Source: Aggregicoccus sp. 17bor-14 (lineage in GTDB: Bacteria; Myxococcota; Myxococcia; Myxococcales; Myxococcaceae). Taken from it: a stretch of 64,000 nucleotides of DNA. The notes below the pieces were generated by a model. It was given only the letters and a program-made list of their open reading frames with translations, had not been told where the DNA came from and ran no database searches. Every line of letters begins with the position of its first letter. Position 1 is the first letter of the stretch. The stretch lies in assembly GCF_009659535.1 (NCBI RefSeq), contig NZ_VJZZ01000006.1:248001-312000 (forward strand), read 5' to 3'. Of this stretch, positions 417-20,633 are shown in pieces. A program made the position numbers and the translations under genes.

Positions 417-1601
<1,185 letters not shown>

Positions 1602-1768: not shown

Positions 1769-3154
1769 ATGGCGCACGACCCCCTGCCCCGCCCCGCCGC
1801 GACGCCCCTCTGGCGGCCGCAGCCCGCGCGCGCCGGGACGCTCTCGCTGCGCGCCGGGGCCCTGTGGGCGCTGGGGGGCAGCGCGGCCTCGGCGGGCGGG
1901 CAGTGGCTCTTCATCGTCCTGCTGGCCAAGCTCACCCGCCCCGAGGAGGTGGGGCACTACGCGCTCGCGCTCGCGCTCACCGCGCCCGCGGTGATGCTGC
2001 TCAACCTGCAGCTGCGCGCGCTCATCGCCTCGGACGCGACGGGGGCCTTCCGCTTCGCGGACTACCTCTCGCTGCGGCTGTTCACCACGCTGCTGGGGCT
2101 CGCGGGCAGCCTCGTGGTGGCGGGGCTGCTGGGCTACCGGGGCGCCGTCTTCGCGCTCATCGCGGCCGTGGCCCTGGGCAAGGCGCTGGACGCGGTGGCG
2201 GACGTGCTCGCCGGCGCGCAGCAGCAGCACGAGCGGCTCGACCGCGTCTCCACCTCCGCGCTGCTCAAGGCGCTGCTGGGGTTGCTCGGGGCCGCGGCGG
2301 TGCTGCGCGGGGGCGGGGGGGCGGCGGCGGCAGGCGCTGCCATGGCGGGCCTCAACGCGCTGGTGCTGCTGCTCTACGACCTGCCCATGGCGGCGCGCGT
2401 GCTGGAGGGCGCGGGGGCACTGCGGCCGCGGCTGCGCTGGGGCGTGCTGCGCCAGCTCGCGGTGCTCGCCCTGCCGCTGGGCGTGGTGATGCTGCTGGTG
2501 AGCCTCATCGCCAACGTGCCGCGCTACTTCATCGAGCACCGCTGGGGCGCCACGGAGCTGGGCGTCTACTCCGCGCTCGCGTACGTCCTCACCGCGGGGA
2601 TGCTCGCGGTGAGCGCCGCGGGGCAGGCGGCTACGCCGCGGCTCGCGCGCGCCTACGCGCAGGGCCGGCGCGACCTGTTCGTGCCCCTGTGCGGGTGGCT
2701 GATGGCGGTGGCGCTGGCGATGGGGGTGGGCGGGGTGGCGGCCGCGGCGCTGTTCGGGCGCGAGCTGCTCACGCTGCTCTACACCCCGACCTACGCCGCG
2801 CGGCAGCACACCTTCGTGCTGGTGATGGTGGGCGCCGCCGTGAGCTTCCTGGCGGGCGCTCTGGGCAGCATCGTCACGGCGGCGCGCGTGCTGCGCGCCC
2901 AGGTGCCGCTGTGCCTCGCGGTGCTCGCGGTCACCACCCTGGCCAGCGCGGCGTGGGTGCCCGGCCGGGGGGCGGACGGCGCCGCGCTGGCCACGCTGTG
3001 CGGCTTCCTCGTGCAGCTCGGGGGCTTCGCGCTCCTGTACCGGCGCGCGCTCGCGGGGCTCGCCCGCTCGTCCCGCGGGACAACGGAGGAAGGGGGCCCG
3101 GGCGCGGGCGGGTTCCCACCACGACGCCGCACGCCGCCCCGGGGCCTCGCCTGA
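1769..3154 (+). CDS. Polysaccharide flippase (Wzx-like, MATE/MVF superfamily)
   Basis: A 461-residue integral membrane protein with about twelve hydrophobic segments from residue 30 to 440, the layout of Wzx-type flippases that move undecaprenyl-linked repeat units across the inner membrane. The N-terminal segment (LWALGGSAASAGGQWLFIVL) and the central RYFIEHRWGATELGVYSAL stretch are typical of polysaccharide biosynthesis C-domain transporters. I chose the ATG at 1769, after which the hydrophobic region follows directly; longer upstream extensions read as low-complexity Arg/Pro and are unlikely. The stop overlaps the start of the next gene (TGATG at 3152-3156), so translational coupling with the polymerase is likely. 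Confidence 0.88.
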   Translation: MAHDPLPRPAATPLWRPQPARAGTLSLRAGALWALGGSAASAGGQWLFIVLLAKLTRPEEVGHYALALALTAPAVMLLNLQLRALIASDATGAFRFADYLSLRLFTTLLGLAGSLVVAGLLGYRGAVFALIAAVALGKALDAVADVLAGAQQQHERLDRVSTSALLKALLGLLGAAAVLRGGGGAAAAGAAMAGLNALVLLLYDLPMAARVLEGAGALRPRLRWGVLRQLAVLALPLGVVMLLVSLIANVPRYFIEHRWGATELGVYSALAYVLTAGMLAVSAAGQAATPRLARAYAQGRRDLFVPLCGWLMAVALAMGVGGVAAAALFGRELLTLLYTPTYAARQHTFVLVMVGAAVSFLAGALGSIVTAARVLRAQVPLCLAVLAVTTLASAAWVPGRGADGAALATLCGFLVQLGGFALLYRRALAGLARSSRGTTEEGGPGAGGFPPRRRTPPRGLA

Positions 3155-4572
3155 TGCGACTGCTCATCCCTCTCGCCGCACTGGTCGCCGGGCTGCTGCT
3201 CCTGCTGGCGGCAGCCAACCCGGGGCTGGTGCCCGAGGGAGTGCAGGTGCCGCTGGTGCTCGGGGTGTGGGGGCTCGCGCTCCCGGTGGTGTTCTGGGCC
3301 GGGGGCCGCACGCTGCTCTGCGCGCCGGGCGGCTACCTCGTCATCCTCGGGCTCTTCCACCTGGGCTACGTGGTGCCGGTGTGGCTGGGGCAGCCGCCCG
3401 GGGAGTTCTCGGAGTGGCTGTCCTCGGAGTGGCTCGGGCCCGCGCTGCTGCTGTGCGGCGCGGCCTTCGCCTTCCTCGCGGCGGGCTGCGCGGCGGCGGC
3501 GCTGCGCTCCCCGGCGCTTCCCGGCGAGGCTCCCGCGGCGCTCGAGCCGGACGGGCGCATGTTCTGGGCGGGCGCGCTCCTGGCGGGGGGGGGCTTCGCG
3601 CTCGCGTTGCGGAGCTTCTGGCAGCTGGGGCTCGCCACGGCCGGCTACGGCGAGTCCTACGCGCTGCGCGCCGCGGAGGACCCCCGCGGCTTCGGGGTCG
3701 GGCTGATGTTCCTGCTGATGGGCACGCTGCTGGGGGCGGCAGGCGCCACGCTGCGCCAGCTCAAGGTGCTCTCGCTCGGCTTCGTGCTGGGGATGACGCC
3801 CTTCTTCGTCTTCGGCTTCCGCGGCCCCTTCCTCGTCTATGCCTTCGCGCTGCTGTGTGTCTGGCGGCAGCGCTCGCCGCGCGCCGCGCGCAGGATTGCC
3901 CTGATGGGTGCCGCGGTGGTCATGGTGGCCGTGCCGGCGGTGCGCATCGCGCGCACGGAGGCGAAGGCCTCGATGGGCGAGGCGGCGCAGCGGGCGCGGG
4001 CGACGGACTTCTTCACCGAGGCGGGGGGCTCCTTGCAGCCACTGGTGGCCACGGTGGAGGCACTCGAGGCGGACGACGTGCCCGAGTGGAAGGGGCGCTC
4101 GTACGTCATGGCCGCGGCGCTGGTGGTGCCCAACCTGTCCTTCGACTGGAGCCCGAAGCAGCTGGAGCTGCAGGACCAGCCCCCCGCCCAGTGGATCTCC
4201 CGGCGCGAGAACCCCTGGCTCTTCGAGCGGGGCGGCGGCATCGGCTACTCGGGCATCGCCGAGCCCTACCTCAACTTCGGCACGGCGGGCCTCGCGGTGT
4301 GGTTCCTCGCGGCGGGCTACGCGCTCACGGTGCTGGAGCAGAAGTCGCGGCAGGGCACCTTCTGGCTCGCCCGCTCGGCCCTCGTCCTCGCGCCGCTCCT
4401 GTGGACGGCGCGCAACGACATGACGAACTTCGTCCGGCCGGCCGTGTGGGCCTGCCTCCTCGTCGGGGCGCTGGCGTGGCTGCGGCCGCGGCCGGCGAGG
4501 CTCGCGGTGGTGCCGCGCGAGGGGCCGTACCCGGAGGTCCACCGGGAGCCTCACCCGGAGCTGCACCGATGA
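3154..4572 (+). CDS. O-antigen/exopolysaccharide polymerase-like membrane protein (Wzy-like)
   Basis: A 472-residue polytopic membrane protein beginning with a strong hydrophobic helix and carrying about ten to twelve helices, with a long hydrophilic loop around residues 270-370 before the last helices. This topology and its place between flippase and glycosyltransferase fit a Wzy-type polymerase that joins repeat units on the periplasmic side. The start (ATG 3154) overlaps the flippase stop and the stop overlaps the next ATG (ATGA at 4569-4572), so three genes form one translationally coupled unit. Wzy proteins diverge strongly, so the assignment rests on topology and context rather than on a signature motif; an O-antigen ligase-type function is the main alternative. 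Confidence 0.78.
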   Translation: MRLLIPLAALVAGLLLLLAAANPGLVPEGVQVPLVLGVWGLALPVVFWAGGRTLLCAPGGYLVILGLFHLGYVVPVWLGQPPGEFSEWLSSEWLGPALLLCGAAFAFLAAGCAAAALRSPALPGEAPAALEPDGRMFWAGALLAGGGFALALRSFWQLGLATAGYGESYALRAAEDPRGFGVGLMFLLMGTLLGAAGATLRQLKVLSLGFVLGMTPFFVFGFRGPFLVYAFALLCVWRQRSPRAARRIALMGAAVVMVAVPAVRIARTEAKASMGEAAQRARATDFFTEAGGSLQPLVATVEALEADDVPEWKGRSYVMAAALVVPNLSFDWSPKQLELQDQPPAQWISRRENPWLFERGGGIGYSGIAEPYLNFGTAGLAVWFLAAGYALTVLEQKSRQGTFWLARSALVLAPLLWTARNDMTNFVRPAVWACLLVGALAWLRPRPARLAVVPREGPYPEVHREPHPELHR

Positions 4573-5783
4573 AGCTCACGGTCACGCTCGAGCACCGCTT
4601 CCAGCGCACGCCGGACGGGGCGGTGTGGACGGGGACGGCCTTCGCGTACGCCTTCTGGCGCCGCTACCTGCGCGGCTTCGAGCGCGTGCGGGTGGTGGCG
4701 CGCGTGCACGAGGTCGCGCAGGTGGCGGCGGATGCGAAGCGCGCGGACGGGGAGGGCGTGGAGGTGTATGCGGTGCCTGCGTACGTCGGGCCGCTGCAGT
4801 ACCTGCGGCGCTCGCGCCAGGTGAAGCGCGCGGTGCGCGCGGCGGTGGAGGACGCGGAGGCGGTCATCTTGCGCGTCCCGTCCACCCTCGGCGGCATCGC
4901 CGCGCGGGCGCTGCGGCGGCGCGGCGCAGCCTACGCGGTGGAGGTGGTGGGCGACCCCTACGAGGTCTTCGCGCCCGGCGCGGTCCGCCACCCCCTCTCC
5001 CCCCTGCTGCGCCGGACCTCCCCGCGCAGCCTGCGCAGGCGCTGCCGCCACGCGGCCGCCGGCGCCTACGTCACGCGCACCGTGCTCCAGCAGCGCTACC
5101 CCTGCGGCGGGCCCAGCCTGGGGGTCTCGGACGTGGAGCTGCCCCCGGCCGCCTTCGTGCCGCAGCCGCGGACCTACGCCCGGGCGCCCTCGCCGCTGCG
5201 GCTCGTCACCGTGGGCTCGCTCGAGCAGCTCTACAAGGGCACCGACGTGCTCATCGACGCCGTGGCCGCGTGCGTGCGCGGCGGCATGGACCTGCGGCTG
5301 ACCATCGTGGGGGACGGGCGGCACCGGGGCGAGCTGGAGGCGCGCGCGGCGCGCGCCTCCCTGCAGGCGCACGTCACCTTCGCGGGGCAGCTCTCCGGGG
5401 GCGAGCGCGTGCGCGCGTGCCTCGACGCGGCGGACGTCTTCGTCCTCCCGTCGCGCACGGAGGGCCTGCCGCGCGCGCTGCTCGAGGCCATGGCGCGCGC
5501 ACTGCCCTGCCTGGGCTCGCGCGTCGGCGGCATCCCGGAGCTGCTCGCCGAGGAGGACCTCGTCCCGCCCGGGGACGCGGAGGCCCTGGCGGCGCGCTTC
5601 GCCGCGTGCGGGAGCGACCCCGCGTGGCTCGCGCGCAGCAGCGCCCGCAACCTGGAGGTGGCGCGCACCTACCGGGACGAGGCCCTCTCGGCGCTGCGCG
5701 ACGAGTTCCTCGCGCTCGTCGCCGCCAGCGCGCTCTCCCCCCGAGCCAATGGCTCCCGCCTGCAGCGGGCCTCAACTTCTTGA
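4569..5783 (+). CDS. Glycosyltransferase family 4
   Basis: A complete 404-residue GT-B glycosyltransferase. The C-terminal donor domain shows LRLVTVGSLEQLYKGTDVLI (the start of the Glycos_transf_1 fold), LTIVGDG and the EX7E motif in SRTEGLPRALLEAMA, followed by VGGIPELL. The N-terminal acceptor domain is less conserved, as usual. Start ATG 4569 overlaps the polymerase stop. It probably adds one sugar of the repeat unit in the cytoplasm; donor and linkage cannot be read from sequence. The TGA stop lies at the beginning of a 13-bp tandem repeat. Confidence 0.9.
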   Translation: MKLTVTLEHRFQRTPDGAVWTGTAFAYAFWRRYLRGFERVRVVARVHEVAQVAADAKRADGEGVEVYAVPAYVGPLQYLRRSRQVKRAVRAAVEDAEAVILRVPSTLGGIAARALRRRGAAYAVEVVGDPYEVFAPGAVRHPLSPLLRRTSPRSLRRRCRHAAAGAYVTRTVLQQRYPCGGPSLGVSDVELPPAAFVPQPRTYARAPSPLRLVTVGSLEQLYKGTDVLIDAVAACVRGGMDLRLTIVGDGRHRGELEARAARASLQAHVTFAGQLSGGERVRACLDAADVFVLPSRTEGLPRALLEAMARALPCLGSRVGGIPELLAEEDLVPPGDAEALAARFAACGSDPAWLARSSARNLEVARTYRDEALSALRDEFLALVAASALSPRANGSRLQRASTS

Positions 5784-5847: not shown

Positions 5848-6300
5848 ATGGACTTCGACGACATGTACGCATGGGTGCAGCGCTACCTGCAGGCGCGCGC
5901 GGAGGGGGCTCCGGGTGAGGCGCTCGCGTTGTGCACCCCGGACTTCTCGCGCGAGGTGGTCGGCTGGCCCGCGGACGGGGGCCGCGACGCGGCGCAGCGC
6001 TTCTGCCAGGAGCTGTGCGCGCACTTCCAGCCCGCGCAGGAGCCGGCGGTCCACTGCCACTACCTGCCCAACGCGCTGGTGATGGATCGCCAGCTGTGCG
6101 GCTGCGTGCACGGCGCGAGCTTCGGGCTGGCGGGAGACGCGCGGGAGGCGAGCCTGCGGGTGGTGCAGGTCTTCGAGTTCCAGGACGGCCGGCTGCGGCG
6201 CGAGACGGTGTGGCTCGACGGCGAGGCGCTGTGCCGCCAGCTGGGGGTGGGGTGCGCGCCGGAGCGCAGCGCCCCGGCGGCGGCCGCCCAGGCTCAGTGA
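5848..6300 (+). CDS. SnoaL/NTF2-like small protein
   Basis: A 150-residue protein with the feel of a SnoaL-like (NTF2 fold) domain: an N-terminal helix (DDMYAWVQRYLQARAEG), the FSREVVGWPADGGRDAAQRFCQ segment, then alternating beta strands ending in VVQVFEFQDGRLRRETVWLD, the closing strand typical of this fold. Members range from hydrolases and cyclases to plain binding proteins, so no reaction is assigned. A good ribosome site (GGAGA four bases before ATG 5848) supports the start. It is convergent with the phosphoglycosyl transferase gene, overlapping it by 7 bp, and its upstream region carries the 13-bp repeats. Confidence 0.65.
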   Translation: MDFDDMYAWVQRYLQARAEGAPGEALALCTPDFSREVVGWPADGGRDAAQRFCQELCAHFQPAQEPAVHCHYLPNALVMDRQLCGCVHGASFGLAGDAREASLRVVQVFEFQDGRLRRETVWLDGEALCRQLGVGCAPERSAPAAAAQAQ

Positions 6301-7037
6301 AGGCGCGCGGCGCCCGCCGCGGTGCCCAGGAACTCGGGCATGGTGACGTGGCCCTCGTGGCTCACGCCGTCGCGGCGCAGCACGGTGCGCACGGTGAGGG
6401 CGAGGATCTTCAGGTCGAGCCACAGGCTGCGCTCCTCCACGTAGCGCACGTCGAGCGCGAGCTTCTCCTCCCAGGAGAGCGCGTTGCGCCCCAGCACCTG
6501 CGCGAGCCCGGTGATGCCCGGCTTCACCTCGTGGCGGCGCGCCTGCTCGGGGCTGTAGCGCGGCAGGTAGTGCATCAGCAGGGGGCGCGGGCCCACCAGG
6601 CTCATGTCCCCGCGCAGCACGTTGAGCAGGGTGGGCAGCTCGTCGATGCTCGCGCGGCGCAGCAGCGCGCCGAGCCGGGTGAGGCGCGCCGCGTCCGAGC
6701 CCGAGTCCACGCCGTCCTCCCCGGGACGCGGGGGGCGCATGGTGCGCAGCTTCACCAGCTCGAAGGGCCGGCCGCCCAGTCCCGGGCGCAGCTGCCGGAA
6801 CAGCGCCGGCGGGCCCATGGTGGCGCGCACCGCGAGCATCGCCGGCAGCAGCAGCGGCGCGCCGACGACGAGCCCTGCGGCGCTGAGCACCACGTCCAGG
6901 GCGCGCTTCACGCGGTCGGAGCGCCGGGAGGCCGTGGGCGGGCGGCCCTGCGCCGCGCGGCCGGCACGCTGCGGGGCCGGGAGGAGTGCGCGCGGCTGCG
7001 CTCGCTGCAGCGGGCGCTCGAGGGTCTGGGAGGTCAT
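6294..7037 (-). CDS. Undecaprenyl-phosphate sugar-1-phosphate transferase (PglC-like small PGT)
   Basis: A 247-residue monotopic phosphoglycosyl transferase that starts repeat-unit synthesis by moving a sugar-1-phosphate to undecaprenyl phosphate. After a 40-residue Arg/Pro-rich head comes the re-entrant membrane helix (residues 44-70), then KLRTM (96-100), the catalytic Asp-Glu pair D132/E133 in RASIDELPTLLNVL, and the signature GDMSLVGPRP (143-152). The lack of extra N-terminal membrane spans makes it a PglC-type small PGT rather than a WbaP-type protein. ATG 7037 was chosen because longer readings only add low-complexity sequence. Its gene is divergent from the beta-helix lipoprotein. With the PglF/E/D-like genes it suggests a bacillosamine-type first sugar. 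Confidence 0.9.
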   Translation of the reverse strand: MTSQTLERPLQRAQPRALLPAPQRAGRAAQGRPPTASRRSDRVKRALDVVLSAAGLVVGAPLLLPAMLAVRATMGPPALFRQLRPGLGGRPFELVKLRTMRPPRPGEDGVDSGSDAARLTRLGALLRRASIDELPTLLNVLRGDMSLVGPRPLLMHYLPRYSPEQARRHEVKPGITGLAQVLGRNALSWEEKLALDVRYVEERSLWLDLKILALTVRTVLRRDGVSHEGHVTMPEFLGTAAGAARLH

Positions 7038-7283
7038 GGTCGCTCCGGGGCAGGGGAGGGGGGCCGAACGAGGCAACGCTGGCTCCGCACTTCGCGCGCG
7101 ACAACTCGTGCGTCCGGCGCAGGGGGGCGCGGCGGGCTGCTCAGGAGCGGAGCGTGCGCCGCCGCATGGCAGGCGACCACGGGGCCTGCGCCCTGAAGAC
7201 AGCTTGAACTGCGGGGGGCAGGGGTCCACCGTCCCCGCGCGACCGCAGTCTCCCCAGCGGGAGGGGGGCGTAGGAGTTCTGTG

Positions 7284-9308
7284 ATGCCCAGCCCCCGCCC
7301 TCGCCGCCTGCGCGGCGCCGCTCTGCTCGTATCTTTGTGGGCCGGTAGCCTCTTCAGCGTCTCCTGCGGCAATGAGGGCGGCGAGCAGGCGACGGAGCCA
7401 TCGGCGGAGAGCGGCCCCGATGCGAGCCAGGAGGACCTGAGCGAGAAGCCCTCCGCGTCGATGCTGCAGGTCAGCAGCAATGCCGACCACTCGGGGGCCC
7501 GCGCGCTGCAGGGCGCCGTGCTCAAGGGCAGCGTCGCTCTCTTCTTCGTCCCGGGCTCGGCCTCGCGACTGCAAAAGGTGGAGTTCTTCCTCGACGACCC
7601 GAACCGGCAGCGGGCGCCGATGACGACCCGGACCGCGCCGCCCTACGACCTCGCGGTGCAGTCCTCGGCGACGGCGGCCGGCCTCTTCGACACCCGCACC
7701 CTCGTGGACGGCGCGCACTCGGTCACCGTGTTCGTCACCTCGACCGCGGGGCAGACGGGGGCGGCCACCGCCACCTTCAGCGTCGCCAACGGCACGACGA
7801 GCCCGACACCGACACCGACACCCACGCCGACTCCAACTCCGACGCCGACGCCGACGCCAACGCCGACTCCCACGCCGACTCCGACTCCCACGCCGACTCC
7901 GACTCCCACGCCGACTCCGACTCCCACGCCGACGCCCACTCCGACGCCGACGCCGACACCCACGGGCCCCCAGTTCTACGTGGCCACCACGGGCAACGAC
8001 GCGAACCCCGGCACCTCCGACCAGCCGTGGCGCACCATCCAGAAGGCGATGCGCTCGGCGACGGCGGGCTCCACGGTGAACATCCGCGGGGGCACCTACC
8101 CGGAGCGCCTCAGCGTGGGGGTCAGCGGGAGCTCGGGCAAGCCCATCACCTTCCAGCCCGCGGGCTTCTCGGGTGGGCCCGGCTGCGGCGGGTACAGCGG
8201 CGTCGCGTGCGGTGGCGAGAAGGTCATCCTCGACTACGCCTCGCTCGGCACGGTGAAGGACGGCGTGCCCTACCTGGACATCAACGGGCGCACGGACATC
8301 CGCATCCAGGGCCTCACCTTCCAGAACTACAACACGCTGGGCGCGATGCAGCGCGGCGTCTGGGTGCACGGCGCCTCGCAGCGCGTGGAGCTGCGCAACA
8401 ACCGCTTCCTGCGCATCAAGAACCCGGGCGCGTGGGACGGCACCAACGCGCTGCTGGACTTCTGGATCCAATCCCCGGCCACCGACATCGTGGTGGCGGG
8501 CAACGAGCTCGGTGAGATCGTCTCCAACTACGGCGAGACGCTCACGCTCGCGGCGAGCGGCGTGCTCATCGAGAACAACTGGCTCCACGACACGGACGCC
8601 ATCGGCATCAACGTGGGCAGCACGGCCTCGACGGGCACCGCCGCGAACATCACCCTCCGCGGCAACCTGCTCGAGTGGATCAGCCGCAAGCGCGACGGCA
8701 GCGTCTGGTACGGCAGCCAGGCGGCGTCCATCTACGTGAACGGCGCGAGCGGCGTGGTCATCGAGGGCAACACCGTGCGCGACTCGGAGTGGGCCTACGA
8801 GGTGTGCCCGGAGCCGGGCTACCCCAACAGCACCAACGTGGTCATCCGCAACAACGTCGCGCTGCGCTGCTACGCGGGCGTGCTGGTGGGCACCTGGTAC
8901 AGCAACACCGACGGCTCGCAGGTCTTCAACGTGAAGGTGCTCAACAACACCTTCTCCGCCACGACCAACGGCTTCGTCATCCGGCCGCACACCAGCGCGA
9001 GCACCGTGTGGAGGAACAACATCGTCGCGGGGGCCTCCAGCGCCGTGGTGAACAGCCTCAACTGGCCGCTGGGCCCCATGGACTACAACTTCTACGCGGG
9101 CGCGCCGGGGCCGGACGCGCACAGGCTCACCGGGGACGTGCAGTTCGTCAACGCCGCGGGCGGCGACCTGAGCCTGGCCTCCGGCTCGCCGGGGATCAAC
9201 GTGGGCGATCCCGCCACCACGACGAACGACGTGGGCACCCTGGACAAGGCGGGCAGACCGCGCATCGCCGGCGGCCGCGTCGACGTGGGGGCCTACGAGA
9301 TCCGCTGA
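7284..9308 (+). CDS. Right-handed beta-helix lipoprotein with Pro-Thr spacer
   Basis: A 674-residue exported protein. Residues 1-30 form a lipoprotein-type signal peptide ending FSVSC, so the mature protein would be lipid-anchored; the lipobox is not canonical at -3. A beta-sandwich-like domain (about 60-170) is followed by 27 Pro-Thr dipeptides and then, from GPQFYVATTGNDANPGTS, a DUF1565-type right-handed parallel beta-helix made of repeated IxIxxNxI rungs (for example RNNRFLRIKN, IENNWLHDTD, IEGNTVRDSE). Such helices bind, cleave or epimerise polysaccharides. ATG 7284 is preferred over the GTG three bases upstream because TAGGAG sits 7 bases before it. Its place between PglC- and PglD-like genes suggests a role on the exported glycan (inferred). 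Confidence 0.9.
   Translation: MPSPRPRRLRGAALLVSLWAGSLFSVSCGNEGGEQATEPSAESGPDASQEDLSEKPSASMLQVSSNADHSGARALQGAVLKGSVALFFVPGSASRLQKVEFFLDDPNRQRAPMTTRTAPPYDLAVQSSATAAGLFDTRTLVDGAHSVTVFVTSTAGQTGAATATFSVANGTTSPTPTPTPTPTPTPTPTPTPTPTPTPTPTPTPTPTPTPTPTPTPTPTPTPTPTPTGPQFYVATTGNDANPGTSDQPWRTIQKAMRSATAGSTVNIRGGTYPERLSVGVSGSSGKPITFQPAGFSGGPGCGGYSGVACGGEKVILDYASLGTVKDGVPYLDINGRTDIRIQGLTFQNYNTLGAMQRGVWVHGASQRVELRNNRFLRIKNPGAWDGTNALLDFWIQSPATDIVVAGNELGEIVSNYGETLTLAASGVLIENNWLHDTDAIGINVGSTASTGTAANITLRGNLLEWISRKRDGSVWYGSQAASIYVNGASGVVIEGNTVRDSEWAYEVCPEPGYPNSTNVVIRNNVALRCYAGVLVGTWYSNTDGSQVFNVKVLNNTFSATTNGFVIRPHTSASTVWRNNIVAGASSAVVNSLNWPLGPMDYNFYAGAPGPDAHRLTGDVQFVNAAGGDLSLASGSPGINVGDPATTTNDVGTLDKAGRPRIAGGRVDVGAYEIR
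7803..7964 (+). repeat. Coding minisatellite for 27 Pro-Thr dipeptides
   Basis: One hundred and sixty-two bases encode an uninterrupted Pro-Thr spacer within the beta-helix lipoprotein. At the DNA level the middle consists of an 18-bp unit (CCGACTCCGACTCCCACG and close variants) repeated several times, so copy number may change by slippage in steps of six residues. The spacer separates the membrane-proximal domain from the beta-helix. Confidence 0.9.
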
Positions 9309-9955
9309 GGCTGCGGGGCGTGGCGCACGAGCGGGCGCGCCGGCACGCCCACCACGGTGAGCCGCTCGAGCACGGGCGTGACCACCACCGCGCCCGCGCC
9401 CACCCGCGCGTCCGCGCCCACGTGCACCTTGGGCAGGACGCACGCGCTGAGCCCCACGTGCGCCCGCTCACCCACCGAGGCGCCGCCGCCCAGCACCACG
9501 CCGGGCGAGATGTGCGCGAAGCGCTCCACGCGGCAGTCGTGCTCGATGATCGCACCGGAGTTGATGATCACCCCCTCGCCCACCTGCGCGCCCGCGTTCA
9601 CCACCGCGCGCGGCAGCACCACGCAGCCCTCGCCCAGCTGCGCGGAGGGCGAGACGATGGCGGAGGGGTGCACGATGGTGACGAGCCGCAGGCCGAGCGC
9701 CTTGAGCAGCCGGTAGCACTCCTCGCGCAGACCGTTGTCGCCCACGCCCAGGGCGAAGTGGTGCTCGCGCCAGCGCCCCGGCTCGGCGCGCACGTGGTGC
9801 GTGGGGAACACCTGCGGTCCGTCGGACGTGTCCGCGCTGCAGTGCGCGGCGTCGTCGTCCAGGAAGCCCAGGATGGTCCACTCCGCGCGCGCGGCATCCG
9901 CCACCACGTGGCCGTGCCCACCCGCGCCATAGATGACGAGCTGGGGCGGGCTCAT
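9293..9955 (-). CDS. PglD/NeuD-family sugar O/N-acetyltransferase
   Basis: A 220-residue left-handed beta-helix acetyltransferase with the N-terminal nucleotide-sugar-binding Rossmann part (LVIYGAGGHGHVVADAA, residues 6-22) and a C-terminal hexapeptide-repeat part (about 95-210). H139 in IIEHDCRV is at the catalytic histidine position of PglD, and the GxPA end motif (VVGVPARPL) is present. PglD uses acetyl-CoA to acetylate the 4-amino sugar made by PglE, which matches the aminotransferase in this locus. The 3' end overlaps the convergent beta-helix gene by 16 bp. A NeuD-type O-acetyltransferase is the alternative. Confidence 0.9.
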   Translation of the reverse strand: MSPPQLVIYGAGGHGHVVADAARAEWTILGFLDDDAAHCSADTSDGPQVFPTHHVRAEPGRWREHHFALGVGDNGLREECYRLLKALGLRLVTIVHPSAIVSPSAQLGEGCVVLPRAVVNAGAQVGEGVIINSGAIIEHDCRVERFAHISPGVVLGGGASVGERAHVGLSACVLPKVHVGADARVGAGAVVVTPVLERLTVVGVPARPLVRHAPQPQRIS

Positions 9956-10004: not shown

Positions 10005-11018
10005 TCATGGGGCGAGAGGGGGGCACGCCGGTGCAGGGGAGGCTGCGCCGGGGGTGAGTCCAGAGGGTGCCGCCTGCTCGGCGCGATACGCAGGAAACTG
10101 TTCCCCCGCGGCCCGCTGTCCGCTCAGCCGCGCGTAGACGGCCGGGTTGCAGACGAGCTCGTGGGTGTAGAAGCACGCCGTCGCGTTGGCGAAGCCGCGC
10201 TTGAAGTGCTCGAGCGCGTCGCCCGGGTGCAGGCCTCCGCCCAGGTGCAGCGTGAGCCCCAACCTCGCGGCGAGCTGGCCCATGGCATTCAGCGTGTTCT
10301 TCGCCGGCGAGAGCGCGAGCGCGGCGCTGGCCGTGCCGCCCACGTAGTAGTGCAGGAAGCCGTCGCTGCGGACCGCGAGCGCCGCGGAGGCGATGTGCCC
10401 CTCGGGCGTGCGCGTGAGGAGCAGCCACGCGGCCGGTGCGCGGAAGGCGTGCGCGAACCACGCGTCCGAGAAGAAGTAGCGCTCGCGCGCGCGGTCCCGG
10501 ACCATGGTCTCGCGGTACACCGCCTTGAATCCCTCCTGCTCTTCGGGCGAGCTCTCGCACACCGGCTTGCAGGTGGTGTCGAAGCCCAGCCGCAGGTTGC
10601 GCCGGATGTGGCGCGCGTGCGACTCGCGCAGGTGCAGGGGCTGCGCCGGGTCCAGCAGGCACACGGGGTTGCGCGCGGTGCCCCCCTCGAAGCAGTGCGG
10701 CTCGCCGAGCCGCTCGCGCACGAAGATGCTCACCAGCCCCGTGTCCTCCCAGTCCACGCAGGCGGGGGGCACCCGGCTCAGGCCGCCGATGCGCGCGCCG
10801 GGAAGCCCGTAGGGCGAGACCGCGTCCAGGAAGGGCGTGCCCTCGATGCGGCGCACCACGAGCGGCAGCCACAGGGCCTCGCCGCCGCGCTCGAGCACCA
10901 GGCTGTGCGTCACCCCCTCGGCGGCGAGGTGCTGCTCGCAGCGGAAGTAGTCCTCGGACATGCACAGCCTTCCGCCGTCCGGGACCAGCACCGCGCTGCA
11001 CCGCCCGCGCGCCGTCAT
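10005..11018 (-). CDS. FemAB/GNAT-like acyltransferase (BioF2-like)
   Basis: A 337-residue protein of the double-GNAT FemAB/BioF2-like type. The first half holds HARHIRRNLRLGFD, the second the conserved strand-helix HYYVGGTASAALALSPAKN followed by the GGGLHPGDALEHFKRGF stretch that closes the fold. FemAB enzymes transfer aminoacyl groups to amines; relatives in exopolysaccharide loci are poorly characterised. The start (ATG 11018) overlaps the stop of the ATP-grasp gene (ATGA), so the pair is translationally coupled and likely works in sequence: one activates a carboxylate, the other transfers an acyl or aminoacyl group. That pairing is inference. The C-terminal 30 residues are Ala/Pro-rich. 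Confidence 0.78.
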   Translation of the reverse strand: MTARGRCSAVLVPDGGRLCMSEDYFRCEQHLAAEGVTHSLVLERGGEALWLPLVVRRIEGTPFLDAVSPYGLPGARIGGLSRVPPACVDWEDTGLVSIFVRERLGEPHCFEGGTARNPVCLLDPAQPLHLRESHARHIRRNLRLGFDTTCKPVCESSPEEQEGFKAVYRETMVRDRARERYFFSDAWFAHAFRAPAAWLLLTRTPEGHIASAALAVRSDGFLHYYVGGTASAALALSPAKNTLNAMGQLAARLGLTLHLGGGLHPGDALEHFKRGFANATACFYTHELVCNPAVYARLSGQRAAGEQFPAYRAEQAAPSGLTPGAASPAPACPPLAP

Positions 11019-12241
11019 CGGCAGTTGCTCGCAGCGGGCTCGCGGGGCACGAGGCCCAGCGCGCCGCGAGGAGGGGGTGGGCTCGAGGCGGGCGGGGGCA
11101 AGGCCACGGGCGCGGAGGCCAGCGCGAGCGGGTCGCGCCCGCGCAGGCAGCGCAGCCGCGCGCGGGCGGAGTCCGCGAAGGTGCACGGGTCCACGAGCAT
11201 GCGGCGCACGAGGCGGCCGCGCTCGCTCCGGTCGAGCGCGGCGTAGCGCAGCAGGGCGGGGCGGAAGAGCGGGTGGTAGTAGATGTCCGCGATCCCGCTC
11301 ACCAGGCGGCGCGGAGGCCCCTCGCCGGGAGGCCGGAGGCACTCGGCGACGAAGTTCAGCCCGCACCAGGCCGAGGCGAGCAGGCTGCGCCAGAAGCGCG
11401 GGTTGCACTCGAGGAGGAAGACCTCGCCCGTCTCCTCCTCGATGCGCGCATCCAGGTTCATCACGCCGTCGTAGCGGCTGTGCGCGGCGAGCGCGAGCGC
11501 GGCGGCCTCCAGCGCCGGGTGCTCGAAGAACTGGATCTCCGAGCCGTCCCCCTTGCGCTGCTGGTAGAGACGGCGCTGGATGGAGAGCGCCCGCACCTGC
11601 CCCCCGCGCGCGAGCAGGTTCACCCCCACGTCCTGGCCGCGCACGTAGCGCTGGGCCACGAGCGGCGCGTGCTGGTAGCGCGGCTCGTCGAGGATCTTGC
11701 GCCGGTAGTCCTCCTCGCTCGTGACGAGCTGCACGCCCTTCGCGCTGCAGGAGTTCACCGGCTTCACCACGAAGGGCAGCCCCAGCGCGCGCGCCGTCTC
11801 GGCGAAGGGGAGGGCGGCCTTCGTGGGGAAGCGCTGCGTGGCCGGCACCTGCAGCCCGCGCGCGGCGCAGAACTGGAAGAAGCTCCACTTGTCCTCCAGC
11901 CGGGCGAGCATCGCCGCGTCCGGCGCGGGGATGGAGGGCGCGTGCAGCTGCGGGCGCAGGCGGCCGAGCAGCCGCGCCGCGCCGCAGTCCGCCGGGACGA
12001 GCACCAGCCCCGGCAGCGTGGCGGCGAGCCCGTTGAGCAGGTGCGCGAAGCCGGCGTCGTCCGGGCCCGAGAAGTCCAGCTCGGCGTAGCCCGCGCACAG
12101 CGCGCTGTAGCGCAGCACGCGCGCGCCGGGGCGGCAGAGCGCGATGCAGTGCGCGTCGCGCGCGGCGTGCAGGGCGAGCAGCACCTGGAGCACGAGCGAG
12201 CTGGCCTCGCCGAGTACCACGAAGTTGGCCCGGGCCCTCAT
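11015..12241 (-). CDS. ATP-grasp family ligase
   Basis: A 408-residue ATP-grasp protein resembling the carbamoyl-phosphate-synthase/PylC branch, which joins a carboxylate to an amine through an acyl phosphate. Visible elements are the first ATP-binding strand FVVKPVNSCSAKGVQLV, the loop around AQRYVRGQDVGVNLLA, and the metal-binding end GEVFLLECNPRFWRSL with its E-x-N-P-R motif. A pre-grasp Rossmann domain occupies residues 1-110 (NFVVLGEASS). AGGAG lies six bases before ATG 12241. It is coupled to the downstream acyltransferase and lies 45 bases from the methyltransferase upstream. Substrate unknown; the tail (residues 375-408) is Pro-rich. Confidence 0.85.
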   Translation of the reverse strand: MRARANFVVLGEASSLVLQVLLALHAARDAHCIALCRPGARVLRYSALCAGYAELDFSGPDDAGFAHLLNGLAATLPGLVLVPADCGAARLLGRLRPQLHAPSIPAPDAAMLARLEDKWSFFQFCAARGLQVPATQRFPTKAALPFAETARALGLPFVVKPVNSCSAKGVQLVTSEEDYRRKILDEPRYQHAPLVAQRYVRGQDVGVNLLARGGQVRALSIQRRLYQQRKGDGSEIQFFEHPALEAAALALAAHSRYDGVMNLDARIEEETGEVFLLECNPRFWRSLLASAWCGLNFVAECLRPPGEGPPRRLVSGIADIYYHPLFRPALLRYAALDRSERGRLVRRMLVDPCTFADSARARLRCLRGRDPLALASAPVALPPPASSPPPPRGALGLVPREPAASNCR

Positions 12242-12286
12242 GCACTGCTCCTTGCGGCGCCCGCGCGGGGCGCGCGCGCCGCGGCC

Positions 12287-13042
12287 TCAGCCCTGCGCCG
12301 GCGCCGCGAGCCCTGCCCCGTAGACGGCGAGCCGGCGCACGCCGGGCCGCAGCGGGTCCATGGGCGAGTTGCCCTCGAAGAGGAGGCGGAAGCCGGGGCG
12401 CCCCTCGAGCGCTGCCCGGCCCATGGGGTTGCTGTAGACGAGCAGCAGCTGCCGCGGCGCCTGGCGGAGGCTCTCCTCGAGGTGGTCCAGGAAGCCACGC
12501 AGGTCCTCGCCGACGAAGGGGTTGTAGAGGAAGGCCACCAGGTCGCCCGCGGGCAGGACGGCGCGCGTCGCGTCGCCGAGCTGCAGCTGCACGCGGCCGC
12601 AGCGGCGCGGGCCCACGTAGCGCTGCAGGTTGCGCTGCGCCGTCGCGTGCAGCGCCGGGCTCAGCTCCACGCCGGCCACCTCGCGGAACGGGTAGCCCAT
12701 GGCGAGCAGCACCGCGCGGCCCTTGCCGGAGCCCACGTCCAGGAAGCTCCAGCGCTCGAGCGGGCGCGGGACGAGGCCCATGGCGAAGTGGAAGTGCTTC
12801 ACCGCGATGGGCCAGTAGCGCGAGCGCCCGTGCGCGTCGTGGATGGGCTCGGTGAGCAGCTCGCGCAGCCGCACGTCGTCGTGGGTGTCCACCCCGTGCG
12901 CCCGGTCGAAGTCCAGCCGGGTGGCGGCCACGAGGCTGCGCAGCGTGTAGCCCACCACCCGGCGCCCCTTGCGGTAGAGGCCCGGCGCGGCGGGAGGGGC
13001 CTTCAGGGGCGCTGCGGGAGAGACGCGCTGGGTGTCAGGCAC
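12287..13042 (-). CDS. SAM-dependent class I methyltransferase
   Basis: A 251-residue Rossmann-fold methyltransferase. Motif I is WSFLDVGSGKGRAVLLA (near residues 98-114), followed by the acidic strand end VAGVELSPAL that would bind the SAM ribose, and a third segment VQLQLGDATRAVLP; the post-motif FLYNPF occupies the catalytic-loop position. A GTG start at 13042 is supported by AGGAG six bases upstream. It heads the minus-strand unit methyltransferase, ATP-grasp, acyltransferase. The methyl acceptor is unknown; the context suggests a sugar or its substituent. Confidence 0.87.
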   Translation of the reverse strand: MPDTQRVSPAAPLKAPPAAPGLYRKGRRVVGYTLRSLVAATRLDFDRAHGVDTHDDVRLRELLTEPIHDAHGRSRYWPIAVKHFHFAMGLVPRPLERWSFLDVGSGKGRAVLLAMGYPFREVAGVELSPALHATAQRNLQRYVGPRRCGRVQLQLGDATRAVLPAGDLVAFLYNPFVGEDLRGFLDHLEESLRQAPRQLLLVYSNPMGRAALEGRPGFRLLFEGNSPMDPLRPGVRRLAVYGAGLAAPAQG

Positions 13043-13329
13043 GGCAGGCTCCTTGCCCGGCGGAACCGGACTCGACGGAAGCGAAGGTAGCGGCGTGCCA
13101 CCGCACGTTCATCCGGTCCTCCGGTCGAAGACGCGGGCGGCGCGCGGCGCGCGCGCCTTGCTGCGCGACGGGCGAAATTCCCACCCCCGCCCGCGGGCCG
13201 AGAGGCGTGCTGCTCCCTCCGTCCCCCGGCGACCCCGCCCCGGCGTGCCTGTGATTGCGGTACAGCTTCCGGCTTCTCTCCGGGGCGCACAGCCTGAGGC
13301 CACCAGCCCTTCACCCGGAGCAGCTCCAG

Positions 13330-14577
13330 ATGGCCCCTGATCACACCCCGGTCGCCGTGGTGGGCGCAGGCCCCTACGGCCTGTCCCTCTCTGCCCACCT
13401 GAGCGCGCAGCACACCGCGCACCGCATCTTCGGGCGGCCCATGTCCATGTGGAGCGAGCGGATGCCGAAGGGCATGCTGCTCAAGAGCGAGGGCTTCGCC
13501 TCGAACCTGAGCACGCCGGACGGCGGCCACACCCTGCGCGACTTCTGCCGCGCGGAGGGACGCGAGTACCAGGACCTCGGCGCGCCCGTGCGGCTCGACA
13601 CCTTCGTGGACTACGGGCGCTGGTTCCAGCAGCAGCGGGCGCCGCACGTGGAGCCGCTGGACGTGGTCGCGCTCGAGCGCGAGCGGGGGCGCTTCCGGCT
13701 GCGGCTCTCGGACGGAGCCGAGCTGACGGCGGACCGGGTGGTGCTGGCGGTGGGGGTGGGCTCCTTCGCCCACGTGCCGCCGGAGCTCGCCGGGCTGCCC
13801 GCGCGCTACGTCTCGCACAGCAGCGCGCACCACGACCTGAGCCGCTTCGCCGGCAAGGACGTGGCGCTGGTGGGCGGCGGGCAGGCGGCGCTGGAGACGG
13901 CGGCGCTCCTGGCGGAGGCGGGCGCCCGGCCCCAGGTGCTCGTGCGCAAGAGCGCGGTGCACTGGAACGAGTCCTCCCAGGGGCGCTCGCTGTGGGCGCG
14001 CCTGTGCGCGCCCCACACGGGGCTGGGCGCGGGCTGGAAGCTCACCGTGTACCTGCGGGTGCCGGGCGTCTTCCGCTACCTGCCCGTGGACCGGCGCGCC
14101 GAGATCGTCCGCACGAAGCTGGGCCCCGCCGGCGCGTGGTGGCTGAAGGAGCGCGTGGTGGACCGGGTGCCGGTGCGCTGCGCCATGGCGCCGAGCGGGC
14201 TCACGCTCGCGGGCGAGCGGGTGCGGGTGCACACGCAGTGCGGCGAGGAGGTGGAGGTGGACCACGTGATGGCGGCCACCGGCTTCCGCATGGACCTGGC
14301 GAAGCTCGGCTTCCTCGCCGCGCCCCTGCGCGCCGAGCTGCGGACCGAGCGCGGCTTCCCGCAGCTCTCGCGCCACTTCGAGTCCAGCGTGCCCGGCCTC
14401 TACTTCGTGGGGCTGCCGGCGGCGCTCGAGTACGGGCCCATGCAGCGCTTCGTGTACGGCGCCCGGCTCGCGGCCCGGCGGGTGAGCGCGGGGCTCGAGG
14501 GCGCACGCGCCCAGGGCGCCGCGCGCGCCCGGGAGCCGGCACGCGCCCCGGGCGCAGCCCCCGCCCCGAGCGCCTAG
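13330..14577 (+). CDS. FAD/NAD(P)-binding oxidoreductase (monooxygenase-like)
   Basis: A 415-residue two-dinucleotide-domain flavoprotein. The FAD-binding motif is VAVVGAGPYGLSLSAHL (residues 5-21) and the NAD(P) motif is VALVGGGQAALETAALL near residue 180; ATGFRMDLAKLGF marks the ATG segment closing FAD binding. The arrangement fits the flavin monooxygenase/lysine N-hydroxylase-like group. ATG 13330 with CGGAG nine bases upstream was chosen over a longer reading. It is transcribed divergently from the methyltransferase and ends 4 bp inside the convergent dehydratase gene (shared CTAG). Substrate unknown; it may act with the neighbouring tailoring enzymes (inferred). The tail after residue 385 is Ala/Pro/Arg-rich. 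Confidence 0.85.
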   Translation: MAPDHTPVAVVGAGPYGLSLSAHLSAQHTAHRIFGRPMSMWSERMPKGMLLKSEGFASNLSTPDGGHTLRDFCRAEGREYQDLGAPVRLDTFVDYGRWFQQQRAPHVEPLDVVALERERGRFRLRLSDGAELTADRVVLAVGVGSFAHVPPELAGLPARYVSHSSAHHDLSRFAGKDVALVGGGQAALETAALLAEAGARPQVLVRKSAVHWNESSQGRSLWARLCAPHTGLGAGWKLTVYLRVPGVFRYLPVDRRAEIVRTKLGPAGAWWLKERVVDRVPVRCAMAPSGLTLAGERVRVHTQCGEEVEVDHVMAATGFRMDLAKLGFLAAPLRAELRTERGFPQLSRHFESSVPGLYFVGLPAALEYGPMQRFVYGARLAARRVSAGLEGARAQGAARAREPARAPGAAPAPSA

Positions 14578-16577
14578 GGCGTCGCGGCCTCGCCCTGCGG
14601 CGGAGCGTCCCACCAGCCGGCGGCCGCGGCAGGCGCCGGCCGCTCGAGCGCGCGCGGCTCCGCGGGCGCAGGGGCCGTGCCGGTGGCCGCGGTGGCCGCG
14701 GGCAGCAGCCCCGCGGGCGTGTAGCTGGGCACGAGCTGGCCGAGCTCCCGCCTCACGGCGCTCGCGTCCCCCGCCTGCGCGGCGAGGTGCAGCGGCCCGA
14801 GCTGGAGCAGGAAGTCCTCCGGGGGCGGCGGGCTGTGCGCCACGCAGATGCGGTCGCGCACCAGGTGGCTGCTCTCCTCCTCCTCGGTGAGCAGGCACTC
14901 GGTGAGCTTCTCGCCGGGGCGCAGCCCGGTGAAGACGATGGGGATGTCCTTGCCGGGGACCAGGCCCGCCATGGTGACCATGTTCTCGGCGAGCTCGGCG
15001 ATGCGCACGGGCACGCCCATGTCCAGCACGCACAGCTCTCCGTAGCCCCCCAGCCCGGCGAGCATCAACAGGCCCACCGCCTCGGGGATGGTCATGAAGT
15101 AGCGGGTGCAGTCGGGGTGGGTGATGGTGATGGGGCCGCCGCGCTGGATCTGCTCCTTGAAGAGCGGCACCACGCTGCCCGCCGAGCCGAGCACGTTGCC
15201 GAAGCGCACCGCGGTGAAGGCGGTGCCCGAGCGGCTCGCCACGGCCCGCACCACCATCTCGGCGAGCCGCTTCGAGGCGCCCATGACGGAGCTGGGGTGC
15301 ACCGCCTTGTCCGTGGAGATGAGCACGAAGCGCTCCACCCCGCAGGCGTGCGCCATGCGCGCGACGTTGAGGGTGCCGAAGACGTTGTTCTTCACCGCCT
15401 CCTCGGGCGCGCGCTCCATCAGCGGCACGTGCTTGTGCGCCGCCGCGTGGAACACGTAGTGCGGGGCGTGCTCGCGCCCCAGCCGCAGCAGCCGCCCGCG
15501 GTCGCGGATGTCCGCCACGATGGCGCTGATGGCGAGCTGCGGGTGGCGCTCCTCCAGCCGGCGCGCGAGCAGGTAGAGCTCGTTCTCGTTCATGTCCAGC
15601 AGCACCAGGGACGCGGGCGCGAGGCTGGCCACCTGGCGCGCGAGCTCGCTGCCGATGGAGCCCGCCGCCCCCGTGATGAGGATGCGCCGGCCGGCGACGA
15701 GCCGCTGCAGCTCCCGGGCGTCGAAGGCCACCGCGTCGCGCGGCAGCAGGTGCTCGGGGCTGAGATCGTGCAGCATCGAGGCGCTGAGGCGCTGGCCCTC
15801 CTCGGCGAGCGAGGCGGGCATGATCTTGAAGCTCACGCTCTGGCGGCGGCACAGCCCCAGCAGCTCGCGCAGCCGCTCGGGGGGCAGCTTCGGGATGGCG
15901 ATGAGCACCTGGCCCACGCCGTGGCGCGCGATCAGCTCCGGCAGGCGCGAGAGCGGCCCGAGCACCGGCTTGCCGTGCAGGCAGGTGCCGTGCTTCGCCC
16001 GGTCGTCGTCCACCAGCCCGACGACGTGGAAGCAGCAGCCCGCGTTGTGCTGCAGGTCGTGCAGCAGCAGCTCGCCCGCGTTGCCCGCCCCCACGATGAG
16101 GGTGCGGTGCTTGCCCGTGTCGCGCGCGCGCTGCTGGTCCAGCTGCCACAGCCACATCATGCGCGGGGCGAAGCGGTAGGCGCCCAGCAGCCCCGTGGTG
16201 GAGAGGAGCTCCAGCGCGAGCACCGAGGAGGGCCAGCGCGGCAGCCCGAGCGCCGCGCGCGCGGCCTCGAAGAGCAGCGTGCCCAGCGCGCCCGCCAGCA
16301 CCAGCCTCCCGGCCTCGTTGAGCCCCGCGCCGTGGAAGGACCAGCGGTGCAGCCCGAGCCCCCCCAGCGCGGCGGCCCGCGCCGCGAGCAGCAGCGGCAG
16401 CCCCTGCCCCAGCACCCGCACCCAGTGTCCGGGCACCGCCCCGTCGAAGCGCAGCACCGCCGCGTTCACCAGCGAGGCGGCCGTGAGGGCCAGGTCGAGC
16501 AGCAGCACCACCGGAGGGCGCAGGTGGGGAGACAGGTGGAGGGCGCGGCCCTGCCGCGCCCGCAGTGAGTCGGCCAT
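14574..16577 (-). CDS. PglF-like membrane-bound UDP-GlcNAc 4,6-dehydratase
   Basis: A 667-residue nucleoside-diphosphate-sugar dehydratase. Four N-terminal membrane helices (about 20-140) are followed by a CoA-binding-like Rossmann domain (TLIVGAGNAGELLL, 159-172) and the SDR domain with ILITGAAGSIGSELARQ (299-315). In the active site STDKAVHPSSVMGASK the usual Tyr is Met (M432) with K436, as expected for PglF/FlaA1-type enzymes. The product would be a 4-keto-6-deoxy sugar, the substrate of the PglE-like enzyme near 1 kb. The start at 16577 directly precedes the first helix. An Ala/Pro tail of some 50 residues extends past the usual end. Confidence 0.93.
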   Translation of the reverse strand: MADSLRARQGRALHLSPHLRPPVVLLLDLALTAASLVNAAVLRFDGAVPGHWVRVLGQGLPLLLAARAAALGGLGLHRWSFHGAGLNEAGRLVLAGALGTLLFEAARAALGLPRWPSSVLALELLSTTGLLGAYRFAPRMMWLWQLDQQRARDTGKHRTLIVGAGNAGELLLHDLQHNAGCCFHVVGLVDDDRAKHGTCLHGKPVLGPLSRLPELIARHGVGQVLIAIPKLPPERLRELLGLCRRQSVSFKIMPASLAEEGQRLSASMLHDLSPEHLLPRDAVAFDARELQRLVAGRRILITGAAGSIGSELARQVASLAPASLVLLDMNENELYLLARRLEERHPQLAISAIVADIRDRGRLLRLGREHAPHYVFHAAAHKHVPLMERAPEEAVKNNVFGTLNVARMAHACGVERFVLISTDKAVHPSSVMGASKRLAEMVVRAVASRSGTAFTAVRFGNVLGSAGSVVPLFKEQIQRGGPITITHPDCTRYFMTIPEAVGLLMLAGLGGYGELCVLDMGVPVRIAELAENMVTMAGLVPGKDIPIVFTGLRPGEKLTECLLTEEEESSHLVRDRICVAHSPPPPEDFLLQLGPLHLAAQAGDASAVRRELGQLVPSYTPAGLLPAATAATGTAPAPAEPRALERPAPAAAAGWWDAPPQGEAATP

Positions 16578-16741: not shown

Positions 16742-18019
16742 TCAATCGGGGTGCGGGGGGGCCGTGCGCCATGCTCGAGCGGCACCTGCGACGCTGCGGT
16801 CCCACCTCCGCCGCGGCTGCCCCGCGCCGGGCGCGCCGCGCCGCGCCACGGCGGGCTGCACGGGCAGCCCCCGGCGGGCCAGCAGCGCACGGTAGACCTG
16901 GAGGGTCGCCTCGCAGAGCACCTCGGGCCGGAAGTCTCGCAGCATGCGCGCGCGGCCCGCCTCGCCGTGCCGGCGCCGCAGGGAGGGGGAGGCAAGGTAG
17001 CGCGCGAGCGCCGCTGCGAGCGCCCGCGCATCGCCCACCGGCACCATCTCGCCCGTCACCCCCGCCTGCACCGAGTCCACGCACCCCGTCACCTGCGCCG
17101 TCACCACCGGCAGCCCCATGGCCGCCGCCTCCGCGTTCACCATCCCGAAGCCCTCGCGGTGGGAGGGCAGCGCCACCACGTCCATCGCGGCGTAGAGCGG
17201 AGGCACGTCCAGGGTCACGCCCGCCAGGTGCACGCGCGGGTCCTGCCGCAGGGCCTCGAGCACGCCCGCGGGCACGGGGTCCATGGGCTCCGGCGCGCCC
17301 ACCACCAGCAGGTGCGCCGTGGGGAAGCGCTCGCGCAGCTCGCCCCACGCCGAGGCGAGCTCGCCCACGCCCTTGTCGCGCACGATGCGCCCGACGAAGC
17401 CCACCACGGGGGCGTCCTCGGGGATGCCCAGGCGCCGGCGCGTGGCGGCGCGCGCGGGGAGGTGGCGCGAGGGGTCGAAGTGGCCGGCCGCGTCCACCCC
17501 CGCCACGCTCCCGTGCCCGGGGACCTGCAGCTTGTGCGCGGGCACCAGGCGCTCGCGCAGCGCCACCGCACGCAGCGAGCCGCTCACGCACAGCACCTGG
17601 TGGGCGAGTGAGCACGACAGGCGCTCGGTGCAGCGCAGCAGCAGCCGCTTCCTCCCGCGCGCGGTCTCCAGGGGCAGCCCGTGCAGGTGGTAGATGCACA
17701 CCGGCACCCCGGCGAGCCGGCCGGCGAGCATGCCCAGCAGCCCCCCCTTGGGGGTGTGCGCGTGCACCACCTGCGGGCGCTCGCGGCGCAGCAGCCGCAC
17801 CAGCTGGGCGAGCGAGGCGAGGTCCTGGAGCGGCGTCACGGCGCGCGCCATGGGCACGCCGAAGCAGGGCACGCCCTCGCGGGCGGCGAAGTCGGTGAGC
17901 GCCTTGCCCGGCGCCGCCACCGCCCCCACCCACAGCCCCTGCGCCCGCTGGTAGGCGAGGTGGCCCCGCAGGAACAGCAGCGTGGCGGGCACCGTGGTGA
18001 CGTGGAGGACGCGCAGCAT
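16742..18019 (-). CDS. Glycosyltransferase family 4 (PglA-like)
   Basis: A 425-residue GT-B glycosyltransferase. The N-terminal domain has VVHAHTPKGGLLGMLAGRLAG and YHLHGLP, typical of enzymes acting on undecaprenyl-diphosphate-linked first sugars such as PglA. The donor domain shows APVVGFVGRIVRDKGV, LLVVGAPEP and the EX7E motif in SHREGFGMVNAEAAA. I chose ATG 18019 because the first beta strand (MLRVLHVTTVPATLLFLRGHL) begins there; an in-frame ATG at 18058 is possible. It probably adds the second sugar after the PglC-like step (inferred from family and context). The C-terminal 40 residues are Arg/Ala/Pro-rich. Confidence 0.9.
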   Translation of the reverse strand: MLRVLHVTTVPATLLFLRGHLAYQRAQGLWVGAVAAPGKALTDFAAREGVPCFGVPMARAVTPLQDLASLAQLVRLLRRERPQVVHAHTPKGGLLGMLAGRLAGVPVCIYHLHGLPLETARGRKRLLLRCTERLSCSLAHQVLCVSGSLRAVALRERLVPAHKLQVPGHGSVAGVDAAGHFDPSRHLPARAATRRRLGIPEDAPVVGFVGRIVRDKGVGELASAWGELRERFPTAHLLVVGAPEPMDPVPAGVLEALRQDPRVHLAGVTLDVPPLYAAMDVVALPSHREGFGMVNAEAAAMGLPVVTAQVTGCVDSVQAGVTGEMVPVGDARALAAALARYLASPSLRRRHGEAGRARMLRDFRPEVLCEATLQVYRALLARRGLPVQPAVARRGAPGAGQPRRRWDRSVAGAARAWRTAPPHPD

Positions 18020-18145: not shown

Positions 18146-20551
<2,406 letters not shown>

Positions 20552-20633
20552 GGGGGCCACCCTAGCGCCGCCTCCCGCCCGAGCGAACCGCTTCTTGGCG
20601 CGGCCCGTGTGCCCCGCCTGGCCGCCCGGCCCG

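Follow-up and report, generated by a model that had tools for sequence, protein, structure and literature searches.

An ATP-grasp ligase and a FemX-like acyltransferase in a predicted operon of a bacillosamine-type Wzx/Wzy locus of Aggregicoccus sp. 17bor-14

Related systems

In Neisseria, the ATP-grasp unit of PglB2 has been proposed to acylate the 4-amine of uridine diphosphate (UDP)-2-acetamido-4-amino-trideoxyhexose (PMC6959607, PMC11130364). According to the accessible text on Caulobacter HfsK, this FemX-like protein with tandem GNAT domains is needed for normal cohesion of the holdfast exopolysaccharide, presumably by acylating sugar amines (PMC5362036). In Aggregicoccus sp. 17bor-14, proteins of both kinds are encoded side by side in a predicted operon within a polysaccharide locus. 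This locus was analysed in a window of 64,000 nucleotides, the whole stretch of DNA studied (contig 6, positions 248001-312000, in a draft genome of 6.9 Mb). The operon, together with an adjacent flavoprotein gene, may acylate or aminoacylate a 4-amino-sugar of an exopolysaccharide, a tentative reading that falls somewhat short of probable.

The Neisseria meningitidis PglB2/PglC/PglD glyceramido-sugar (GATDH) pathway, with PglB2 compared by its description only, shares with this locus a 4,6-dehydratase, an aminotransferase, a phosphoglycosyl transferase and an ATP-grasp enzyme. However, it serves protein O-glycosylation, whereas the product here would be an exopolysaccharide. The ATP-grasp unit of PglB2 is described as fused to the phosphoglycosyl transferase; here the two are encoded by separate genes (11015-12241 and 6294-6911). 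A FemX-like gene, a methyltransferase and a flavoprotein, all present here, are not reported in the available accounts of the Neisseria pathway. HfsK, like the FemX-like protein here, is a GNAT protein tied to an exopolysaccharide, but it is regulated by c-di-GMP and its available description includes no ATP-grasp partner. PglB2 (PMC11130364) is a described precedent for the ATP-grasp ligase and HfsK (PMC5362036) for the FemX-like protein, so an initial annotation of the window, which knew of no described pathway with such genes, went too far.

Bacterial exopolysaccharide loci commonly encode FemX-like GNAT proteins, and the accessible text on HfsK gives both its donor and its acceptor as unknown (PMC5362036). 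Here, the FemX-like gene is linked, by its operon and by synteny in seven genera (its own included), to enzymes predicted to make one defined amino sugar, which names a concrete candidate acceptor.

Weissella FemX takes UDP-MurNAc-pentapeptide (MurNAc, N-acetylmuramic acid) as its acceptor and aminoacyl-tRNA as its donor; for the protein described here only a sequence relationship is seen, a profile-level match (7.9e-10) whose alignment spans only the C-terminal (second) GNAT domain of FemX. Judging by its title, a survey by Iyer et al. 2009 reportedly covers ATP-grasp and acetyltransferase-like amidoligases with a predicted role in peptide-type modifications, and the present combination would be of that general kind.

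The operon and the divergent flavoprotein gene

Four genes on the minus strand are predicted to form one operon, from which a flavoprotein gene diverges:

12287..13042, minus strand: S-adenosylmethionine (SAM)-dependent methyltransferase with a weak family match (PF13649, 24.7 bits, below the cut-off of 27); first gene of the operon
11015..12241, minus strand: ATP-grasp ligase, PRK06849-like, with an LECNPRFW motif (PF02655, ATP-grasp_3, 42.7 bits; cut-off 23.2)
10005..11018, minus strand: GNAT/FemX-like acyltransferase (PF13480, 29.2 bits; cut-off 22; family profile to FemX, 7.9e-10)
9293..9955, minus strand: PglD/NeuD sugar N-acetyltransferase (TIGR03570, 214.8 bits; cut-off 160.8); last gene of the operon
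13330..14577, plus strand, divergent from the operon: flavin adenine dinucleotide (FAD)/NAD(P) oxidoreductase of the flavin-containing monooxygenase (FMO)/lysine-ornithine hydroxylase type (PF07992, Pyr_redox_2, 62.2 bits; cut-off 26.1; PF13434, 37.4 bits)

The stop codon of the ATP-grasp gene and the start codon of the FemX-like gene share an ATGA overlap. AAGGAG precedes both the GTG start of the methyltransferase gene, at 13042, and the ATG of the ATP-grasp gene; the FemX-like gene has no clear match to a ribosome site upstream, which fits translational coupling to the ATP-grasp gene. The flavoprotein gene converges tail to tail with CapD (14574-16577).

The initial annotation had named the methyltransferase, ATP-grasp, FemX-like and flavoprotein genes, with the ATGA coupling, inside a Wzx/Wzy locus. 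This holds: Pfam matches identify the genes (the methyltransferase below its cut-off), and Wzx, Wzy, Wza and Wzc are present. Since the frames of all four are open and homologous to known families, chance is excluded. The annotation missed that the operon runs on into PglD and that the locus is of the bacillosamine type.

The AlphaFold model of the ATP-grasp protein, with a predicted local distance difference test (pLDDT) score of 82, resembles GAR synthetase, PylC and L-amino acid ligases in its fold (Z 24-25, root-mean-square deviation 3-4 angstrom), all of which join carboxylates to amines. Its catalytic residues K118, K160, D264, E278 and N280 do not vary among relatives, and the ATP and metal ligands of the fold are intact. 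The FemX-like protein gave a low-quality single-sequence model (pLDDT 39); it matches PF13480 and has no match to PF02388. Membership in the XrtA/PEP-CTERM FemAB family (TIGR03019) was rejected, as the protein has no NCBIfam match and its paralogue group, at 43 bits, stays below the cut-off of 260.

Recurrence of the genes and their pairings

Orthologues of the FemX-like gene (53-61% identity) occur in 29 further genomes of the family, which makes 30 of 96 genomes and 7 of 26 genera with its own genome counted. Among 15 fetched loci from six other genera, CapD adjoins the gene in 14 and lies one gene off in the remaining one, usually with DegT, PglC, Wzx, Wzy and Wzc. This set excludes L045, with the order FemAB-acyltransferase-FemAB and without CapD, and L129, in which CapD lies past the fetched end. 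This synteny with CapD across relatives makes the FemX-like gene a standing, resident part of such loci.

The ATP-grasp, methyltransferase and flavoprotein genes were found in none of these 15 orthologous FemAB-CapD loci, a search with an ATP-grasp profile included, and no orthologue of the methyltransferase was found in the relatives' version of the locus. No close orthologue of the ATP-grasp ligase was found among the 96 family genomes (best matches 28-34% identical over part of the length) or in GTDB r220 (best 34%). The search for the same gene set in other myxobacteria, which the initial annotation had proposed, thus did not find it; a conserved myxobacterial set of all four genes is rejected, and the idea of one dedicated four-gene pathway was too strong.

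In most relatives, a conserved lipoprotein-like secreted protein of about 390-430 amino acids is encoded between DegT and the FemX-like gene (L044:8034-9200, L046:14077-15177, L115:7982-9178, L120:8009-9304); the two tested have no Pfam match. One genus (L045:7794-12854, L046) has about four FemX-like copies per genome, and in genome G030 two copies flank an Acyl_transf_3 gene, beside an eCIS-core-domain protein.

The association of the ATP-grasp ligase with GNAT proteins recurs elsewhere. A PF13480 GNAT gene lies within 6 kb of the ATP-grasp relative in 8 of 19 loci against 0.27 expected, which rejects chance as the cause, and in 5 of 15 after close relatives are merged (P about 6e-7). The GNAT gene lies directly upstream of the ATP-grasp relative in an exopolysaccharide locus of Skermanella, and in one of Chelatococcus the two occur with a methyltransferase. 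A Burkholderiales locus combines the ATP-grasp relative with a GNAT, a second, sugar-transfer ATP-grasp and a Mur-ligase-like protein.

In Burkholderiales, L055:7076-15701 encodes an AMP-binding enzyme, a pyridoxal phosphate-dependent decarboxylase, two ATP-grasps, a GNAT and a Mur-ligase/peptidyl-tRNA hydrolase fusion, and could be a peptide-tagging system.

The flavoprotein has a recurring partner as well. Among 195 genomes of the phylum, only three other relatives were found (E below 1e-25), and all adjoin an ATP-grasp gene: two in polysaccharide loci (G020, G058) and one (G157) with a neighbouring methyltransferase and without glycan genes. Of seven distinct plasmid relatives, two from Granulicella and one from Bradyrhizobium adjoin an ATP-grasp gene and one from Mesorhizobium is one gene away; none was found beside those of two Streptomyces and one Deinococcus plasmids. 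Outside the window, the flavoprotein gene thus adjoins or lies one gene from an ATP-grasp gene in 7 of 10 independent loci (P about 8e-8, with a background of 5% that we assumed); 5 of these 7 are polysaccharide loci. Two of the counted ligases (G157, Mesorhizobium) are below the Pfam cut-offs, yet match ATP-grasp profile A2. As the partner ligases belong to several subfamilies, it is the functions that pair recurrently, and not one co-inherited pair of genes.

Similar gene categories come together in two other loci. The best match is a Bradyrhizobium barranii plasmid, where about 23 kb hold all of the categories: a FemAB-type GNAT (PF13480, 60 bits; PF02388, 42 bits), DegT, two sugar transferases and one hexapeptide transferase, the flavoprotein with an ATP-grasp, a methyltransferase and two asnB genes. 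In G039, a more distant relative, one locus holds PglC, ATP-grasp, DegT, GT4, a FemAB relative, CapD and Wzc; its ATP-grasp, of a different subfamily (PRK12767), directly follows PglC, and no PglD was seen in that stretch. The combination of categories is therefore not unique to this genome, while the exact operon was found only here. Three modules, the FemX-like gene, the ATP-grasp gene and the flavoprotein gene, are joined in this locus.

The glycan-tailoring role suggested initially is plausible and is now better supported by recurrence. Both pairings are found again, largely in polysaccharide loci; as a set, the four genes are not conserved.

The surrounding locus and a proposed pathway

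The locus starts about 4 kb upstream of the window with Wza and Wzc (locus L049), followed by GT4, DegT, Wzx, Wzy, GT4, a SnoaL-like protein, the PglC-type enzyme, a beta-helix protein and PglD, and then by the FemX-like, ATP-grasp, methyltransferase, flavoprotein, CapD/PglF and GT4 genes. Its further genes in the window are:

417..1601, minus strand: DegT/DnrJ/EryC1/StrS aminotransferase (PglE/LegC-like), a predicted 4-aminotransferase for a UDP-4-keto sugar (PF01041, 339 bits; LegC-family TIGR04181, 368 bits, below the cut-off of 420)
1769..3154, plus strand: Wzx flippase (PF01943, 44.8 bits)
3154..4572, plus strand: Wzy polymerase (PF14296, 83 bits)
4569..5783, plus strand: GT4 glycosyltransferase (PF13692, 112 bits)
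6294..6911, minus strand: PglC-like monotopic phosphoglycosyl transferase, the priming enzyme (PF02397, 199 bits; Asp-Glu dyad at 90-91)
14574..16577, minus strand: CapD/PglF-like membrane UDP-N-acetylglucosamine (UDP-GlcNAc) 4,6-dehydratase (PF02719, 352 bits; STDKAV motif)
16742..18019, minus strand: GT4 glycosyltransferase (PF13692, 107 bits)

CapD, DegT, PglD and PglC in a single locus make up a bacillosamine-type synthesis and priming set. The catalytic motifs IIEHD of PglD, STDKAV of CapD and IDE of PglC are intact.

In the scheme proposed here, we infer every substrate, the order of the steps and the product. CapD and DegT would convert UDP-GlcNAc to UDP-2-acetamido-4-amino-2,4,6-trideoxyhexose, the free 4-amine of which PglD would acetylate. 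Alternatively, the ATP-grasp ligase may couple this 4-amine, via an acyl-phosphate, with a small carboxylic or amino acid, as proposed for Neisseria PglB2. The FemX-like protein would then put a further acyl or aminoacyl group on a free amine, much as has been suggested for HfsK (PMC5362036), and the methyltransferase and flavoprotein may prepare or decorate the acyl group. PglC would attach the sugar to undecaprenyl phosphate; polymer assembly and export would fall to Wzx, Wzy, Wzc and Wza.

Weighing the readings

Observed here are the gene content, the layout of the operon, catalytic motifs that are intact and gene pairings that recur. Several points weigh against the acylation of a 4-amino-sugar by the operon and the flavoprotein. 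The nearest ATP-grasp relatives are just 30-34% identical, several of them outside polysaccharide loci, and the FAD-linked ATP-grasps elsewhere belong to other subfamilies. Some relatives, in G157, on one Granulicella plasmid and in Streptomyces, lie outside any clear glycan locus. As the orthologous FemAB-CapD loci lack the ATP-grasp, methyltransferase and flavoprotein genes, the FemX-like step does not require these three, and the presence of PglD means that the ATP-grasp ligase need not act on the 4-amine.

The same absence from the 15 loci would also be expected if two unrelated functions shared this stretch, with the FemX-like protein, PglD and CapD serving the polysaccharide and the ATP-grasp, methyltransferase and flavoprotein genes forming a horizontally acquired cassette for a soluble metabolite. 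G157, in which these three are grouped apart from glycan genes, points the same way, as do ATP-grasp relatives in other metabolic contexts, for instance beside a P450. However, the ATP-grasp gene is coupled in translation to the FemX-like gene and runs in the same direction as PglD, and both partners have relatives that turn up repeatedly in polysaccharide loci, which leaves this explanation rather unlikely.

The ATP-grasp ligase could instead replace or supplement PglD by placing one hydroxy or amino acid on the 4-amine, as in the glyceramide sugar of Neisseria, with the FemX-like protein acting on another sugar or transferring acetyl groups from acetyl-CoA. The description of PglB2 as an ATP-grasp/phosphoglycosyl transferase that makes the glyceramido sugar (PMC11130364) fits such a substitution, as does the G039 ligase directly behind PglC in a stretch where no PglD was seen. 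But the G039 ligase belongs to that other subfamily, PRK12767, and the ATP-grasp gene here is predicted to share a transcript with PglD as well as with the FemX-like gene. We regard this substitution as unlikely.

Little likelihood is left for the strict form of the initial annotation, a FemX-like protein using aminoacyl-tRNA within one dedicated aminoacylation, methylation and oxidation pathway of four genes: the match to the C-terminal GNAT domain of FemX and the same categories on the Bradyrhizobium plasmid are in its favour, but PF13480 proteins with acyl-CoA donors are common, the gene set is not conserved in relatives, and the window holds no tRNA gene, which is not decisive.

Returning to the acylation of a 4-amino-sugar, a more elaborate version seems very doubtful. 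The amino sugar might carry a short non-ribosomal peptide-like side chain, with the ATP-grasp enzyme ligating an amino acid hydroxylated by the flavoprotein and methylated, and the FemX-like enzyme extending it from aminoacyl-tRNA, a peptidoglycan-style decoration of the secreted polysaccharide.

Relation to Myxococcus polysaccharides and further genes

The Wza of the locus (L049:15960-17060) carries a Wza_C domain (PF18412, 29.9 bits; cut-off 25.8). In contrast, M. xanthus WzaX, WzaS and WzaB are class 3 OPX (outer membrane polysaccharide export) proteins without this domain (PMC9603273), so the locus looks like a different pathway from Myxococcus EPS, BPS and MASC and appears to be of a myxobacterial Wzx/Wzy type distinct from the three studied in M. 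xanthus. The M. xanthus spore coat contains glycine (PMC12288465, PMC9603273), for which the spore-coat (exo) pathway was considered; it was set aside since the Wza class differs.

Within the locus, positions 7281-9308 of the window encode a secreted right-handed beta-helix protein with a choice-of-anchor Q end, and other, different beta-helix proteins lie near FemAB and CapD in loci L119 and L123. They are possibly polymer-acting enzymes. Just past the locus, at 18146-20560, a glutaminyl/glutamyl-tRNA synthetase is fused to a C-terminal GatB/YqeY domain.

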